In this document: in pieces, positions 16,117 to 31,858 of the stretch
Numbering within the stretch: the stretch's first letter is position 1
How the letters are laid out: each line of letters begins with the position of its first letter
Source of the DNA: Bacillota bacterium
Lineage (GTDB): Bacteria > Bacillota > Syntrophomonadia > Syntrophomonadales > Syntrophomonadaceae
Direction of reading: 5' to 3'
Length of the DNA stretch: 64,000 nucleotides
NCBI GenBank assembly: GCA_029550685.1
Contig: JAKPGY010000076.1
Coordinates: forward strand, 1-64,000
Position numbers and translations under genes: made by a program
Notes under the pieces: generated by a model
Databases searched by the model: none
Told to the model about the DNA's origin: nothing
The model's input: the letters and a program-made list of their open reading frames with translations, nothing else

Positions 16117-17424
16117 ATGCGCCTTGAAATCGGTAATTTTCCTGTGAAAGACATTCGCTTCGGTGATCGGACTGAATACCAGCAGGGCATCCTGACGATT
16201 AACAAAACCGAAGCTCTGGAGGTAGTTTATGAAGACGATCACATTATTGATGCTGATTTGGTAATTGCCCGCCCTGGGGACTCGGTGCGGATTACCCCGG
16301 TTAAGGAAGCTATTGAGCCGCGCTGTAAAGTATCAGGCGGGGTCATGTTTCCCGGAATGACCAATGACTTAATACGAGCCGGGCAGGGCAGAACTCACGC
16401 CCTAAAAGGTATGAGTCTCACCGTAGTGGGCAAACACTGGGGCGGGTTCCAGGATGGGGTAATTGACATGAGCGGCCCGGGAGCTGTCCATAGTTATTAT
16501 TCCAGTCTTATAAACCTGTGCCTGGTGGGAGATACGGATGAGGAATTTGAACGGTATGAGCAGCAGAAGAAAAACCGGGCTTTGCGCTGGGCTGGGCATC
16601 GTCTGGCCGAGTATATCGGTAAATGTGTGGAAAACCAAACTCCTGAAGAAATTGAGGTATATGACCTTCCGCCCATTACCCAGCGTCCACCGGACGTAAT
16701 GGCTTTACCCGGAGTAGTATATGTGATGCAGTTGGATTCCCAAATGGAGGAGATGGGTTACAATGCCCTGGTGTACGGCTGGGACTCCAATCACATGCTC
16801 CCCACTCTTATGCATCCCAATGAAGTTTTAGATGGAGCTATAGTGTCGGGAAGCTTCATGCCCAGTTCCTCTAAGTTCTCCACTTACGACCACCAGAATA
16901 ACCCGACTCTGAAACGTCTCTACCAGGAACATGGGAAGACTATTAACTTCCTGGGGGTTATCATGTCTAACCTGAATGTTAAGTTAGTACAGAAAACCCG
17001 TTCCGCTTTGTTCGTAGCACAGATCGCTAGTACTCTGGGCGCCCAGGGAGCCATTGTAGCCGAAGAAGGTTATGGTAATCCCGATGCTGATTTCATTCAA
17101 TGCATCGTGGAGCTAGAAAAAACCGGAGTTAAAACGGTGGGCATCACCAACGAATGTACCGGGCGCGACGGCAAATCCCAGCCTCTGGTGGCTCTGGATC
17201 GCCTGGCTGATGCCATTGTCTCCACCGGTAATGTCTCCGAACTGTTAGACTTACCCCCCATGCAAACGGTGATCGGTGAACTGGAATCCCTGGCTCGTGA
17301 TGGCAATTCCGGGGGCTGGGCAGAGTCCGTTAGACCTGACGGCTCCATTATTATCGAGGATAATGCCATGTTCTGCGGAGATATGATTTGCGGTTTTTCT
17401 ACCAAGACGGTTAAGGAATACTAA
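16117..17424 (+). CDS. Betaine/sarcosine reductase component B, GrdI/GrdG-like subunit
   Basis: Substrate-binding subunit of the selenoenzyme that reductively cleaves betaine or sarcosine, 435 aa. The family is clear from DGAIVSG, AEEGYGNPDAD and NECTGRDGKSQPLVALD. In the glycine enzyme (GrdE) the motif VSGNC is cleaved and Cys becomes a pyruvoyl group. Here the same place reads VSGSF (Ser246-Phe247), so that cleavage is not possible. As I recall, betaine and sarcosine B components have an uncleaved subunit of about 48 kDa, which agrees with GrdI/GrdG. The downstream BCCT transporter favours betaine. ATG 16117 follows AAAGGAG. The component A and C genes are not in this window. Confidence 0.88.
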   Translation: MRLEIGNFPVKDIRFGDRTEYQQGILTINKTEALEVVYEDDHIIDADLVIARPGDSVRITPVKEAIEPRCKVSGGVMFPGMTNDLIRAGQGRTHALKGMSLTVVGKHWGGFQDGVIDMSGPGAVHSYYSSLINLCLVGDTDEEFERYEQQKKNRALRWAGHRLAEYIGKCVENQTPEEIEVYDLPPITQRPPDVMALPGVVYVMQLDSQMEEMGYNALVYGWDSNHMLPTLMHPNEVLDGAIVSGSFMPSSSKFSTYDHQNNPTLKRLYQEHGKTINFLGVIMSNLNVKLVQKTRSALFVAQIASTLGAQGAIVAEEGYGNPDADFIQCIVELEKTGVKTVGITNECTGRDGKSQPLVALDRLADAIVSTGNVSELLDLPPMQTVIGELESLARDGNSGGWAESVRPDGSIIIEDNAMFCGDMICGFSTKTVKEY

Positions 17425-17437
17425 GGGGGCGAAAAAG

Positions 17438-18754
17438 GTGAAAAAAGGCATTCACTATGTCAATCAGTTTTTCGGTCAGATAGGCGGTGAGGAATCAGCG
17501 GATTTTGAGCCGGTTATCCGGGAAGGTTTAGTAGGACCAGCTACAGCTTTAAACGAAACTTTAGCCGATGTTACTATTACCCACACTATTATTTGCGGAG
17601 ACAACTATATGGGGTCCAATACGGAAGAGGCCCTAAAAAGAATCAGCGATTTTCTGCGGGACAAGGACTTTGACATTTTCTTCGCTGGCCCCGCTTTCCG
17701 GGCTGGACGTTATGGCATTGCCTGCGGCAATGTGTGCCAAATGGTCCAGGAACAATTCAATGTGCCGGTGGTTACATCTATGAATGATGAAAACCCCGGT
17801 GTAGAAATGTTCCGCCAAAAAATGTACATCCTCAAAGGCGGAAAAAGTGCAGCCGATATGCGCAAAGATATCAAGGCCATGGCCCAGCTGGGACAAAAAC
17901 TGGCTAAGGGAGAGCCCATAGGTTCAGCCCAGGATGAAGGCTACTTTGGTCGCGGAGAGCGTCACCAGACCCTTTTAGATCCACCCATACCTGCTGCCGA
18001 CCGGGTAGTGGATATGCTGTTGAAAAAGCTTAATAACCAGCCTTTTCAAACGGAACTGCCTATTCCCGAAGCGGACCGGGTTCCGATTGCTCCAGCCGTT
18101 AAAGACTTAAGTAAAGCAACCATAGCCTTTGTCACCTCCGGAGGCATTGTACCGGCGGATAACCCGGACCGTATCCAGTCTGCCTCGGCAACCAAATGGG
18201 GTCGTTATAATATTTCCCAATATAAGGACCGTTTGCCGGCCGGGGAATATAAGACCATCCACGCCGGCTATGATCCAGCCGCTGCCAACGAAGATCCCAA
18301 CCGGATTTTCCCTCTGGATGCTCTGCGGGCGTATGAAAGGGAAGGAAAGTTCGGCAAGCTGCACGAGTATTATTACGCCACGGTGGGAACAGGTACCACT
18401 CAAGGTGAAGCAGCCCGTATGGGTCGAGAGATCTCTGAATACTTGCATGAGGCTAATGTAGACGCAGTTATTTTGGTTTCCACCTGAGGGACCTGCACTC
18501 GTTGCGGAGCAACGATAGTAAAAGAGATTGAGAAGACCGGCCTCCCCATTGTGCAAATGTGCAACCTGGTGCCCATTGCCCTCACCGTAGGTGCCAATCG
18601 AATTGTACCCACTATATCCATCCCTTATCCTCTGGGAGACCCTGACACCCCTCCGGAAGAACAATGGAAACTTCGCTATCACCGGGTCGGAGTAGCTTTG
18701 GATGCTCTGGCTACCGATATAAGCGAGCAAACCGTTTTCCGGGTAAAAGTATAG
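17438..18754 (+). CDS. Betaine/sarcosine reductase component B selenoprotein (GrdH/GrdF-like), UGA = Sec350
   Basis: Selenocysteine subunit of component B, 438 aa when the UGA at 18485-18487 is read through. Stopping there would give a truncated 349-residue product ending in VILVST. Beyond the UGA the frame continues as GTCTRCGATIVKEIEKTG to a stop at 18754, exactly the UxxCxxC-type active site of GrdB/F/H. The substrate's C-N bond is broken there and a carboxymethyl group is passed to protein A. A hairpin typical of bacterial SECIS lies just after the UGA. The GTG start at 17438 is 13 bp after the partner subunit gene. The assignment to betaine rather than sarcosine rests on the BCCT gene next door. 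Confidence 0.93.
18488..18520 (+). promoter_or_regulatory. Bacterial SECIS element of grdH-like gene
   Basis: A perfect 7-bp stem, TCGTTGC at 18499-18505 with GCAACGA at 18509-18515, closes a GGA loop. The loop G lies about 19 bases after the UGA, inside the usual spacing for SelB-binding hairpins. Confidence 0.85.
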
Positions 18755-26286: not shown

Positions 26287-27258
26287 TCATTTATCAAACA
26301 GGTGACGGTATTCACCATAGCCTTCCTTCTCCAAGTCTTCCTTGGGTATGAAACGCAGGGCGGCTGAATTAATACAATAGCGTAAACCGGCAGGTGCCGG
26401 ACCGTCGTTAAATACATGACCCAGGTGAGAGTCAGCCTGGCGGCTGCGTACTTCGGTGCGCACCATACCATGACTCTTATCCAGCTTTTCTATAATACTG
26501 CTGTGATCGATGGGACGAGTAAAACTGGGCCAGCCACAGCCGGAATCAAATTTATCCAGAGAAGTAAACAATGGCTCCCCGGACACTACATCCACATAAA
26601 TCCCTTCCCGGTTATTATCCCAATACTCATTACGAAAAGGCGGTTCGGTAGCATTGTTCTGGGTCACATCAAACTGCAGCTTGGTTAACCTTTTACGCAG
26701 CTCATCAAGATTTAAAGCCGGCTTTCCCCAGGTCTCTTCGAGAAAAGCCTCTCTTCCTGACCCCCGCTTATATTGGCCATAATGAACCGGGTTTTTTTTA
26801 TGATAATCCTGGTGGTAGTCCTCCGCCGGGTAGAATTCCGATGCAGGCAGGATTTTGGTAACAATCGGTGCTTGGAAATACCCGCTGGCTTGCAGGCGGT
26901 CTCGTGACTCCTCGGCCTGCTTTTTTTGCTGCTCATCATGGTAGAAAATTGCCGTCTGATAGGACTGGCCTCGATCATGGAACTGCCCTCCCGGGTCAGT
27001 GGGATCAATCTGCCTCCAAAAAATCTCTAACAACTCAGGATAGGAAATGCGGCTGGGATCATAAGTTACCTGAACTGCTTCATAATGCCCGGTTTGACCG
27101 GAACATACTTCTCTATAGGTAGGGTTTTCTTTATGGCCGCCGGTATATCCTGATACTACTTGCAGGACCCCTTCTTGTTCCTGAAAAGGTGCCACCATAC
27201 ACCAGAAGCAGCCCCCGGCAAAAGTGGCTTTATCTGTCTTGAGGTTCTCTTTGTTCAT
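26287..27258 (-). CDS. msrAB: Bifunctional peptide methionine sulfoxide reductase MsrA/MsrB
   Basis: Fusion of 323 aa that repairs both stereoisomers of oxidised methionine. MsrA occupies about residues 10-165. GGCFWC carries the catalytic Cys17, which is selenocysteine in some relatives but is Cys here. MsrB occupies about 185-315. [11 protein letters not shown] and [11 protein letters not shown] mark it, with the second motif holding its catalytic Cys. The start is ATG 27258 after GAGGTG. Thioredoxin would be the reductant. In a strict anaerobe this is an oxygen-stress defence gene. Confidence 0.96.
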
Positions 27259-27382: not shown

Positions 27383-28027
27383 TTATAGCTTTTCCCCGCA
27401 CTCGGGGCAAAACTTGCTGCCCGGGGTGACTTTATTCCCACAGGCAGGACAATTTTCCCGGACCTTCAAAGGTGCACCGCATTCCGGGCAGAACTTGGCA
27501 TTAGATGCCAAGGGGGCTTCACAATTGGGACATGATGCTCTGATATTTTCCCGCCAGTATTCCTTACCCAGTTTTTTGTCTTCTTCGGCCATAGCCGCAT
27601 GAGCCCACACTTCCTCTACTGATCTACTAGCTTGGGCAGCTGCCATTTCCACACCCAGATCCGGCGCACAGGCTTTGCATAATCCCTTTTTGGTGTTCCA
27701 ACATCCCGACCGGCATACCCAGCTGGAACAGCGTGGGCACTGAACAAAATCAGGTTTCATTTCCTCAATAGCTGCTTCAAAAGCTTCGTCATGGGCTTTT
27801 TCCCAGGATACAGAACGAACCCGCTCGCTTACATCAGCCGCTCTGCTGAAAAGGCCTCCAAAAAGGCTGCCGGCGGCATCGAAAACCCCTGCTACTGTAC
27901 CCGTAACCGATGGTTTGAACCTGGTCCTGAATCCGCTGCCGCAGCGATCACAATAAAATTCGAATTGAAATCCCTTGTTGGTGCTGAGGTCACTGTAATT
28001 CCTTACAAATCTAATCTTGTCCGCCAC
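27383..28027 (-). CDS. Multiple zinc-ribbon protein
   Basis: A 214-aa protein with several Cys-pair metal sites. One is YCDRCGSGF near residue 25. A middle cluster reads CPRCSSWVCRSGCW then CKAC. Two C-terminal double zinc ribbons read CPNCEAPLASNAKFCPECG and CPACGNKVTPGSKFCPECG. The start is GTG 28027, because GTAGGAGGAGA lies just before it. A glycine-rich segment (about 40-60) may touch the membrane. The family has no settled role. It is a single gene with its own terminator. Confidence 0.8.
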   Translation of the reverse strand: MADKIRFVRNYSDLSTNKGFQFEFYCDRCGSGFRTRFKPSVTGTVAGVFDAAGSLFGGLFSRAADVSERVRSVSWEKAHDEAFEAAIEEMKPDFVQCPRCSSWVCRSGCWNTKKGLCKACAPDLGVEMAAAQASRSVEEVWAHAAMAEEDKKLGKEYWRENIRASCPNCEAPLASNAKFCPECGAPLKVRENCPACGNKVTPGSKFCPECGEKL

Positions 28028-28314
28028 ACCGTCTCCTCCTACAAAAAGCAATTCGGGTTTTAGTGTAGCAAATTTATGGTATTCCTACTATATACTTCTC
28101 AATTGAAAAAAGCCTATTGAGTAGACACAACCTCCAACCTATGAACATGAAATATTTATTTTGGTGATCGACTATATATGACAATATCTCTAAAGGAAGT
28201 TTTTCGAAAGTGTCAAAAGTTGTTTTATGTAACATTTTTTACAACCCGGCCTGATAACCTATGGATCTGTATTATTCCTGTCAAAGGCACTGATCATTCT
28301 AGTGAGGAGGACCT

Positions 28315-30699
28315 ATGGATTATCGATTGACCGACCTGATTGATACCGAATTACTGCAGAGATCGACTGAACGATTCTCCGACTTAACCGGCATCGCCAC
28401 CAGCATAATAGATCACGATGATGTTTTGATCGCCAGCGCCGGCTGGCAAACAATTTGCACCGACTTTCACCACCGCTGTCCAGCTACTAACCAGATCTGT
28501 CAAATGAACTATACCCGTCTTAAACAACTGGTAACTAAACTACCTTATGCAACCTGTGAATGCCTGAGTGGATTAACCCATTATGCTGCGGCTATCGAAA
28601 TAGATGGGGATCATTTAGGTACGGTTATTACTGGACCAATCTTTCTTAATAACCCGGACCGGCAGCGTTTTATACAGCAGGCACGCCAATTTGGGTTTGA
28701 TGAAGAAGCTTACCTGCAAGCCCTGACCAAAGTTACCGTCATATCCCCCCAGCAAATAGAGAAAAATATGCGGTTCGTCACCGACCAAACTCAGGTGCTG
28801 GCCAGAATTGGATTGGAACGCAAACAACGGCTGGAAGCCGAAAAGAAAGCTTCCACCAGCGAAACTCGTCTCAAAATGATTACGGAATCAAGCAATGACG
28901 GCTTTTGGATCTGGAACGAAGATAATTCTTTTATCATGAGCCCCCGTTGTGCAGAGATTTTAGAGTTCTATACGGAGAAATACGATACCTTGACCTGGTT
29001 GAGCAGGATTCATCCTGAGGATGTTGATCAGGTGATTAATCAAATAAAAGACCATCTGGCTGGCTATATTTCTCATATTTCTACTGAATACCGGGTACGT
29101 ACCCGGCGAGGCATGTGGAAGTGGATTCACTTTAAGGCGCGGATAACCCGATATAATGCCAACGGCTGCCCCAGTCAGGTGGCAGGTTCTATCAGCGATA
29201 TAAGTGAGAGAAAGCAGTTCGAAGCGGACCTGCTGGAGAGAGAAAGCTTGTATCGCTCCCTGGTAGAAACCTCTCCCAGTGCCATCGTCCTGACTGATCG
29301 TAAAGGTATTATCAAGTTTGTAAACTCCCAAGGAGCCATACTATCAGGTTGGAATGACCCTGCCAAGTTGGTTGGGCAGAGCGGTTTGGTTTTGCTGCAC
29401 ACAGATCAATGGGGCCAAATGGGCTTGGATTATCGCCAGATAATAGCATTGGGTTGCTGCAAACAGGATGAATATACCTGTGTGCGAAAGGATGGCTCTA
29501 CCTTCATAGCTGAGCTAAATATGGCCCCTATCTATAACGCCAATCAACGCCTGACCGGCTGCATCAGCATAGCCCAAGATATCACAGCCCGTAAAGCCAT
29601 GGAAAGTGAACTTTTGCAGCACCGCAATCACCTGCAAAAGCTAGTGGAGCAGAAAACCAAAGCCTTGCGCTTATCGGAAGAAAAATTTGCCAAAGCATTT
29701 ACAGCCAGTCCCATCGCTATGAGCATTACCACTTTAGAAGAAGGACGATATATAGAAGTCAATGATGCCTTTTGCAGTTTGATAGGTTATCAACGGGAAG
29801 AAATCATTGGCCAGGCATCACTGGTAATCTGGAATGATCCGGAAGAACGTCACAATTTTAAGCAGTTGATCCAGGAACACGGTTTAATAAAAGATCACGA
29901 ATTTAATTTCGTCACCAGGTCCGGGGAAGTTCGGGTAGGTCTAATATCTGGTCAATATATTCAAATTGGGGAAGATACCTGCATATTAAGCTCAATTAAT
30001 GATATAACCGAAAAACGCCGCATTGACCGGGAGATGGAAAGACTGGACCGCCTGAATCTGATCGGGGAGATGGCCGCCAGCATAGGCCATGAAATCCGCA
30101 ACCCTATGACAACTGTGAGGGGTTTGCTGCAGATACTGAGCAACAATCAATCATATGCCCAGGAGCGGGAATTATTTGAGCTAATGATTGAAGAGTTAGA
30201 CCGGGCTAATTCTATTATCACTGAATTTCTGTCCCTGGCTAAAAACAAGCACGTGGATTTGTTGCCCGGCAATCTATCAAAAATATTGGAAAGTGTTATT
30301 CCCCTGATCCAAGCCAATGCTTTGAGTCATGAGATACATGTAGATTACCAGCTCAATCCGGTCCCCGATATTCTTTTAGACGACAAAGAAATCCGCCAGT
30401 TGATTCTTAATCTCACCCAAAATGGCCTGGAGGCCATGCCGAAAGGCAAGAGCTTAACATTACGAACCTACCGGGATAACGGGCAGGTAGTCTTGATGGT
30501 TAAAGATGAAGGCTCAGGCATTGATGATGCTGTTTTGGATAAACTAGGATTACCTTTTGTAACTACTAAGGAGAAGGGTACCGGTTTAGGCTTATCAGTC
30601 TGCTATCGTATCGCTGCCCGTCATAATGCGGTCATTGATGTGGAAACCGGTCCCCATGGAACCACCTTTTTTGTACGTTTTCCGCTGGCGCTGCAATAA
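28315..30699 (+). CDS. Sensor histidine kinase with PocR and three PAS domains
   Basis: Cytoplasmic signalling kinase of 794 aa with no membrane helix. An N-terminal PocR-type sensory domain (about residues 1-165) has conserved cysteines (CPATNQIC, CECLSG). Three PAS/PAC domains follow (about 180-300, 305-425, 455-575). The HisKA box SIGHEIRNP puts the phosphorylated His at 592. The ATPase domain has N-box NLTQNGLEAM, G1 DEGSGID and G2 GTGLGLSV. PocR domains commonly sense small organic ligands. No response regulator gene is adjacent, so its partner is elsewhere. The start is ATG 28315 after GAGGAGG. Confidence 0.92.
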   Translation: MDYRLTDLIDTELLQRSTERFSDLTGIATSIIDHDDVLIASAGWQTICTDFHHRCPATNQICQMNYTRLKQLVTKLPYATCECLSGLTHYAAAIEIDGDHLGTVITGPIFLNNPDRQRFIQQARQFGFDEEAYLQALTKVTVISPQQIEKNMRFVTDQTQVLARIGLERKQRLEAEKKASTSETRLKMITESSNDGFWIWNEDNSFIMSPRCAEILEFYTEKYDTLTWLSRIHPEDVDQVINQIKDHLAGYISHISTEYRVRTRRGMWKWIHFKARITRYNANGCPSQVAGSISDISERKQFEADLLERESLYRSLVETSPSAIVLTDRKGIIKFVNSQGAILSGWNDPAKLVGQSGLVLLHTDQWGQMGLDYRQIIALGCCKQDEYTCVRKDGSTFIAELNMAPIYNANQRLTGCISIAQDITARKAMESELLQHRNHLQKLVEQKTKALRLSEEKFAKAFTASPIAMSITTLEEGRYIEVNDAFCSLIGYQREEIIGQASLVIWNDPEERHNFKQLIQEHGLIKDHEFNFVTRSGEVRVGLISGQYIQIGEDTCILSSINDITEKRRIDREMERLDRLNLIGEMAASIGHEIRNPMTTVRGLLQILSNNQSYAQERELFELMIEELDRANSIITEFLSLAKNKHVDLLPGNLSKILESVIPLIQANALSHEIHVDYQLNPVPDILLDDKEIRQLILNLTQNGLEAMPKGKSLTLRTYRDNGQVVLMVKDEGSGIDDAVLDKLGLPFVTTKEKGTGLGLSVCYRIAARHNAVIDVETGPHGTTFFVRFPLALQ

Positions 30700-30840: not shown

Positions 30841-30869
30841 TTGTACCGTTTAAGGTTTTCATATATAAT
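30841..30869 (+). promoter_or_regulatory. Sigma-A promoter of the HesB-like selenoprotein gene
   Basis: TTGTAC at 30841-30846 and TATAAT at 30864-30869 are separated by 17 bases. The start codon lies 50 bp after the -10. Confidence 0.75.
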
Positions 30870-30885: not shown

Positions 30886-30918
30886 AATCCCTTAATTGCA
30901 AATAAGAGGTGATATTAG

Positions 30919-31245
30919 ATGGAGCTAATTACTGCCACTGCCAGCGTGGTAGACGATATCAAGCAGGTACTTTCAGCTCAGGGAATCAATAAAAACAGTC
31001 TTCGCATTGCCATGAATATGGGCTGAGGGGGAGCCTCTTTTTATCTGGTTCTGGATGAACCAGGTGATTCTGACCAGGTACAGGTTATCGATGGAATTCA
31101 ATTTGTAATCCAGCAGCCACTTATAGATATGTTTGAAGGTTTTACCCTGGAATCCGTTAAACGTGATGAGCAAACCCTGTTTCGAGTTATTCCCAAAGTT
31201 GATCAGGACAGCGGAGGATGCTCTTCCTGTACATCCTGCGGATAA
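30919..31245 (+). CDS. HesB/IscA-like selenoprotein, UGA = Sec36
   Basis: A 108-codon gene interrupted only by an in-frame UGA at 31024-31026. Reading through gives RIAMNMG-Sec-GGASFYLVLDE, then DGIQFVI, and ends in GGCSSCTSCG. This is the A-type iron-sulfur carrier fold (HesB/IscA). Selenocysteine aligns with the first conserved cluster-binding Cys (normally GCGG or GGGCSG), and a Cys-rich tail replaces the usual CGC. HesB-like selenoproteins are known in anaerobes. The start is ATG 30919 after AAGAGGTG, with a clear promoter upstream and a terminator right after. A SECIS-like hairpin follows the UGA. It probably acts in iron-sulfur or sulfur/selenium handling, which is inferred. Confidence 0.88.
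31027..31070 (+). promoter_or_regulatory. Bacterial SECIS-like hairpin of the HesB-like selenoprotein
   Basis: CTGGTTC (31045-31051) pairs perfectly with GAACCAG (31057-31063) around a TGGAT loop. The loop guanines lie about 27 bases after the UGA, within the accepted range. Confidence 0.75.
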
Positions 31246-31250
31246 AATTA

Positions 31251-31280
31251 AGCGAGCCTTCGGGCTCGCTTCTTATTTTT
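31251..31280 (+). terminator. Terminator of the selenoprotein gene (bidirectional)
   Basis: AGCGAGCC-TTCG-GGCTCGCT is a perfect 8-bp stem with a stable UUCG loop, followed by TCTTATTTTT. It lies between convergent genes. Confidence 0.9.
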
Positions 31281-31300: not shown

Positions 31301-31858
31301 TTAGATAATGTCCAGCACGAATTTCTCCGGAAAACGAGGCGTAATATGCCGGTAGTACTCTATAACCTGCTGCATATCCCGCTGGTAATCCCCGCTGGGA
31401 TAAAAAGCCAATCCCACATGAGCAATTTTCTTCTTGTAATCCAGTGAACTCAATACAATCGGTACTTTGGCCTGCAAAGCCGCTTGATAAAAACCGGTCT
31501 TCCATTTCCCTTTCAGTTTGCGGCTTCCTTCCGGGGAGAGTAAGATCACCAGTCTCTCAGAACGGTTTAATAGCTCTACCATATGACTGACCAGGTTTTC
31601 TGATTTATCACGCCGCACGCTAATACCTCCGGTGGCCTTGAAAAATAATCCCAGCGGGAATATCATTAACTCCTTTTTAATCAAATACTTGACTGGTCTA
31701 TTCATCATATACAAAGCGGCGCGGGAGTAGCCAAAATCAAAATTACTAGTGTGAGGTGCACCCACCATAATACACTTTTTTATCCCGGAATCCAGTTCCC
31801 CCTCCAGCTTCCAGCCACTGAGCTTATAATAAAGTTTTGACAAAGTTCTCATTATCAT
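31301..31858 (-). CDS. 1-acylglycerol-3-phosphate acyltransferase family protein (PlsC-like)
   Basis: Phospholipid acyltransferase family member of 185 aa. The catalytic HX4D motif is His36-Asp41 in APHTSNFDF. The glycerophosphate-binding motif is represented by SPEGSRK. The N-terminal hydrophobic anchor is weak, so it may be a peripheral membrane protein. Short members of this size are common in anaerobes and their exact acceptor is uncertain. ATG 31858 lies behind AAGGAG. It is a single gene, convergent with the selenoprotein gene. Confidence 0.85.
   Translation of the reverse strand: MIMRTLSKLYYKLSGWKLEGELDSGIKKCIMVGAPHTSNFDFGYSRAALYMMNRPVKYLIKKELMIFPLGLFFKATGGISVRRDKSENLVSHMVELLNRSERLVILLSPEGSRKLKGKWKTGFYQAALQAKVPIVLSSLDYKKKIAHVGLAFYPSGDYQRDMQQVIEYYRHITPRFPEKFVLDII

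Follow-up and report, generated by a model that had tools for sequence, protein, structure and literature searches.

A reading frame of 108 codons with an ATG start and a single in-frame TGA, at codon 36, is present in the window (the whole stretch of DNA analysed, 64,000 nucleotides), where it lies between a PAS/histidine-kinase-like gene (28315-30699, plus strand) and a convergent acyltransferase-like gene (31301-31858, minus strand), both named by inspection. A ribosome binding site, GAGGTGA, is found 6 nt 5' of the ATG, the translation carries the tail GGCSSCTSCG, and the frame is followed by a terminator hairpin with a UUCG loop (31250-31271) and then a T-rich tail (Table 1); in all of these points the original prediction, which was made from the sequence without database searches, described the locus accurately. 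The sigma-A promoter that it proposed stands in part: the -10 box is a perfect TATAAT, whereas the candidate -35 box, TTGTAC at a spacing of 17 bp, matches at three of six positions and was not listed by the promoter scan. The arrangement is best explained as a single-gene transcription unit for a predicted Sec-containing A-type (IscA/HesB-fold) protein.

Table 1. Coordinates of the features of the hesB-like locus in the window
Feature	Position	Strand	Basis
Weak candidate -35 box, TTGTAC	30841..30846	+	Inspection only
-10 box TATAAT, overlapped by the operator	30864..30869	+	Sequence inspection; TATAATACCCC conserved in relatives
Putative CsoR-type operator, palindrome ATACCCCTAGGGGGTAA	30868..30884		Genome pattern search, csoR-trx matrix, phylum survey
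Ribosome binding site, GAGGTGA	30906..30912	+	Sequence inspection; similar site in homologues
Predicted hesB-like selenoprotein gene, 108 aa, UGA36 read through	30919..31245	+	Frame, homologues, dN/dS (about 0.1-0.3 before and after the UGA)
In-frame UGA, codon 36, predicted to be read as Sec	31024..31026	+	Same-codon TGA in 17 genes of the bacterial family
Putative SECIS stem-loop, 7 bp, loop UGGAU	31045..31063	+	Covariation and synonymous constraint
C-terminal CxxCxxC codons (C101, C104, C107)	31219..31239	+	Homologue alignment; tail of low model confidence
Intrinsic terminator, UUCG loop	31250..31278	+	Terminator analysis

Also encoded near hesB are a fused MsrA-MsrB methionine sulfoxide reductase (26287-27258, minus strand) and a zinc-ribbon protein (27383-28051, minus strand), and similar genes are found near hesB in several relatives. 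A second selenoprotein gene of the window (17276-18754, TGA at 18485-18487) was named by inspection as a GrdB-type reductase subunit (STUGTCTRC); it has an Rfam SECIS_4 match at 18488-18525 (54.5 bits) and stands between a GrdE/I-like ORF on its 5' side and a BCCT-type transporter gene on its 3' side (both also named by inspection), and the cluster suggests betaine or sarcosine reduction.

Decoding of the in-frame UGA

The window genome and 60 relatives were searched for homologues, and 17 genomes of the same bacterial family were found to carry one with TGA at the same codon (39-86% identity). The original prediction had asked whether homologues are conserved beyond residue 35, and conserved residues were found to run through the Cys tail to the C terminus, with no variation at G100, C101 and C104 and almost none at G99 and C107. 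In close relatives dN/dS, where it could be computed, was about 0.1-0.3 for the parts of the gene before and after the UGA alike, which indicates purifying selection on both sides of UGA36. Two of the 17 genes are irregular: the L034 homologue ends at a contig end, and in L033:1501-1820 (G027) the frame is lost near residue 82 and the remainder lies in another frame, through a frameshift or a sequencing error. Conservation in the 17 genes covers the in-frame TGA as well as the frame that follows, and both are taken to be more than chance.

The perfect 7-bp hairpin that had been described about 27 bases after the UGA was located at 31045-31051/31057-31063 (CUGGUUC/GAACCAG, loop 31052-31056), with its stem starting 18 nt and its loop 26 nt past the UGA. 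Folding of this region, one of the checks proposed with the original prediction, gave a mildly unusual result for the single sequence (z = -1.2 for 71 nt), and comparative evidence was therefore used. Across the 17 homologues 95.8% of the cells of the hairpin pair, 9 cells hold two-sided changes, and three of the seven stem pairs show compensatory two-sided changes; the covariation score was 0.310 against 0.171 (sd 0.022) for shuffles, was reached by 0 of 500 shuffles, and was destroyed when the partner strand was slid by 1-3 columns. Synonymous codon identity is 0.73 at codons +3 to +13 and 0.43 elsewhere. Rfam SECIS models gave no match at the hairpin, even with E values up to 10 allowed; because such elements vary from gene to gene in bacteria, this result is not strong counter-evidence. 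The comparative data support a stem-loop that would direct Sec decoding of UGA36 from just downstream.

A search of the genome for the selenocysteine machinery, likewise proposed at the outset, located adjacent selB and selA (C222:9220-12524), tRNA-Sec (selC; C177:204, confirmed by ARAGORN) and selD, which has an in-frame TGA of its own (C177:8784). The genome thus holds selA, selB, selC and selD together with a gene in which a SECIS-like stem-loop soon follows a UGA that is conserved in homologues at the position of the first conserved Cys of an A-type protein. No Cys paralogue of the Sec-HesB protein was found in this genome. The assembly consists of 251 contigs with an estimated contamination of 7%, so that a foreign origin is conceivable for the sel and csoR genes, which lie on other contigs; for csoR this is argued against by 93% identity of its product to the CsoR of a genus-mate (G001).

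Codon 36 is a stop in the standard code and the hairpin alone is unexceptional in a single sequence, as a pseudogene, a nonsense mutation or a sequencing error would have it, but these readings were rejected as having next to no probability in view of the same-codon TGA in 17 genes, the purifying selection beyond it, the SECIS covariation and the Sec machinery of the genome. The frame in the window almost certainly encodes a selenoprotein with Sec at position 36.

Protein family and predicted fold

The top two NCBIfam matches of the protein are IscA_HesB_Se and HesB_rel_seleno (TIGR01911/NF038090, E about 1e-12 to 1e-11), but both curated cut-offs are missed (45.4 vs 66.35 and 47.5 vs 85 bits), so that the protein is easily overlooked; a Pfam search returned nothing relevant. 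A profile built from the homologues matched IscA/SufA chains in the PDB and aligned Sec36 to the first cluster Cys of IscA, as originally predicted, and the best structural matches of an AlphaFold2 model (pLDDT 86.3) are IscA and SufA. Assignment to the A-type proteins, also claimed before, thus agrees with both the sequence matches and the predicted fold; the GGCxxCxxC tail has low confidence in the model and is probably mobile. A search for related loci with the single protein as query gave no match and a broad alignment of homologues gave no usable stretch; among named genomes in the close alignment, the nearest are metagenome assemblies of Syntrophomonas.

Members of the HesB-like selenoprotein family have been described from anaerobic bacteria and from methanogens (PMC1794560, PMC13188914, PMC11097638), as the original prediction stated for anaerobes. 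The published selenoproteome of Syntrophomonas wolfei contains none (PMC1794560). For the Methanococcus maripaludis member, which was found through mutagenesis and 75Se labelling, the function "is not clear", and the mutant showed no nitrogen-fixation defect (PMC11097638, 2024). The window protein is likewise a small A-type protein in which Sec occupies the first ligand position. It differs from these proteins in its GGCxxCxxC tail and in the motif at Sec, which reads UGGA in the window protein and, within the bacterial family, UGG plus A, S, T, V, M or I, whereas a review lists UxGP (PMC13188914); UGGP and USGP occur in more distant homologues. With IscA, SufA and ErpA it shares the fold and the first ligand position, but it has Sec for their Cys and CxxCxxC for their C-terminal CxC (CGC in IscA), giving U...CxxCxxC instead of the three-ligand C...CxC pattern of A-type carriers, and its gene bears the CsoR-type operator described below. 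By its sequence the protein is a divergent subgroup (UGGA, CxxCxxC tail) of the HesB-like selenoproteins. The original claim of a Sec-HesB protein is therefore right and, taken alone, describes a variant of a known family.

Putative CsoR-type operator

The most informative feature of the locus is one that the original prediction did not mention, the palindrome over the -10 box. Searches of the whole genome gave a sole exact match to ATACCCNNNRGGGGTAT, starting 21 bp ahead of a csoR gene (C165:5832-6065), and a sole one-mismatch match, which is the hesB site; the csoR gene is the only PF02583 (CsoR-family) gene of the genome and is followed by a thioredoxin gene. Matches with two mismatches were mostly noise (41 vs 30 for a reversed control), and only those with zero or one mismatch were used. 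The palindrome is thus common to the hesB gene and the promoter of csoR itself, and csoR-trx with the same operator was found again in most relatives.

An operator matrix was built from csoR-trx operators only, with backgrounds from the window and the loci analysed, and is therefore independent of hesB. It scored 17.9-24.4 bits upstream of 16 of the 17 family homologues; the second-best score in the window was 12.1 bits (426 tiles). The one homologue without a site is that of G024, a genome which also has no CsoR gene, and in G033 the operator is present while no CsoR gene was found. The genes neighbouring hesB differ between genera, so that the neighbourhood is uninformative beyond the genus and the pairing of operator and hesB is not an inherited block.

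For a survey of the phylum, a draw of 399 genomes plus relatives was used, and 160 bp upstream of each gene were searched for the palindrome with at most one mismatch. It was found at 43 of 73 Sec-HesB genes, in 12 of 27 families, at 0 of 22 Cys A-type genes (not a matched control, many of them belonging to other A-type clades), in 1 of 7300 shuffled regions, and in 1.4% of random context windows, true sites included; kinship inflates the counts within families, of which 12 are involved. The site is absent at 30 of the 73 Sec-HesB genes (for example 0/3 in family f6 and 0/4 in f13). Its presence at Sec-HesB genes and absence from Cys A-type genes suggest that the HesB-like selenoproteins of these lineages are probably members of a CsoR-type regulon for thiol/sulfur or metal stress. 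One genome holds both a UGGM-type and a UGGP-type Sec-HesB gene (L208, G018:C63, and L027, G018:C17), each with the operator palindrome.

Pseudo-palindromes that contain runs of G or C are the binding sites of most CsoR/RcnR homologues, and in Mycobacterium tuberculosis the site overlaps the promoter (PMC10318464). The site in the window is alike in being a G/C-run palindrome with TAC/GTA ends that overlaps a promoter and is shared with the regulator gene's own promoter; the putative targets, a selenoprotein and a thioredoxin, are unlike the copper efflux or sulfurtransferase genes of known CsoR and CstR regulons. Control of the hesB-like gene by a CsoR-family regulator is very probable on these comparisons: the repressor encoded on C165 would bind the palindrome over the -10 box and start region and keep the gene off until induced. 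A link between a HesB-like selenoprotein and a CsoR-family regulon was not found in the open-access literature searched; it is the new part of this analysis and lies outside the stretch that the original prediction covered.

Proposed inducing signal and role of the protein

The regulator on C165 has C34, H59 and C63, the ligand set of copper-sensing CsoR, and among NCBIfam models it matches RicR best, though below the cut-off. In addition, copper-type ATPases are present in the genome and Sec with CxxCxxC could form a soft-metal site, all of which would suit a copper module in which CsoR responds to Cu(I) and the selenoprotein serves as a sponge or chaperone for Cu(I) in the cytosol, or as an A-type carrier resistant to copper. 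Against this, no operator was found near the genome's own copper-type ATPases, within the bacterial family the csoR genes that adjoin HMA/Cop genes are distinct ones that lack the operator (L098, L109, L118), and among the thioredoxin-linked CsoR proteins, in which both Cys are invariant, three have Tyr at the position of the His ligand. Because most of these proteins are nevertheless C-H-C, and a similar palindrome can occur at copA-linked csoR genes from other parts of the phylum (L092, L102), the site itself does not name the inducer. A copper module is considered unlikely.

Exact palindromes were also observed in three relatives ahead of a gene pair for a TAT-signal Fe-S protein (HmcB/HybA-like) and a cytochrome b561 (L162:1501, L175:1501, L178:1501), and in two relatives the palindrome was found near a CoA-transferase gene (L168:1501, an exact site, and L171:1501); L168 has a DsbD/CcdA-type gene downstream, and in L171 an ArsR-type gene is close by. 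Together with the Tyr-for-His changes and the lack of a site at the ATPases, the sites near the Fe-S/cytochrome b pair and the DsbD-type gene make the signal lean to thiol or reactive sulfur over copper. A CsoR-family regulator of Thermus controls sulfur oxidation genes including a thioredoxin (PMC10318464). The dithiol site of CstR consists of Cys31 and Cys60 (PMC9774590), unlike the regulators here, which are mostly C-H-C.

The inducer may accordingly differ from simple copper excess and be a thiol-reactive signal, such as a persulfide, another reactive sulfur or selenium species, or an oxidant. The Sec36 selenolate and the mobile CxxCxxC tail would capture or reduce the reactive species, or a soft metal, and the thioredoxin would re-reduce the selenoprotein. 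Such a thiol/reactive-sulfur role is proposed tentatively, and the explanation as a whole, which combines a Sec-HesB transcription unit, CsoR control and a thiol-linked role, is judged reasonably likely.

That the protein is an ordinary Fe-S cluster carrier or repair protein, with Sec merely in place of a ligand Cys, is an improbable reading: the A-type fold and the alignment of Sec with the first cluster Cys are as expected for such a carrier, but CxxCxxC replaces the CGC tail, no isc or suf genes are adjacent in the loci seen, a housekeeping carrier would not usually have a CsoR-type operator, and the Cys A-type carriers are without the operator. The reading preferred here may apply more widely, and is possible if somewhat short of probable in this broad form: the HesB-like selenoproteins of many Bacillota families would form, with thioredoxin, a CsoR-family regulon that senses reactive sulfur or selenium species (or Cu(I)) and removes them, with Sec and the Cys tail as a sulfur- or metal-trafficking site and not an Fe-S assembly scaffold.

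HesB-like selenoproteins have been known for about two decades, and the divergent subgroup to which the window protein belongs scores below the thresholds now used for annotation, and genome records probably truncate or omit it. If the broad reading of a regulon in many Bacillota families is true, it would be a first functional assignment for the HesB-like selenoprotein family. The operator links this family to a thioredoxin and to a CsoR-type repressor that would sense thiols or metals and, as it is shared with one repressor gene, makes the question of function directly testable, namely which inducer frees CsoR from the hesB promoter.
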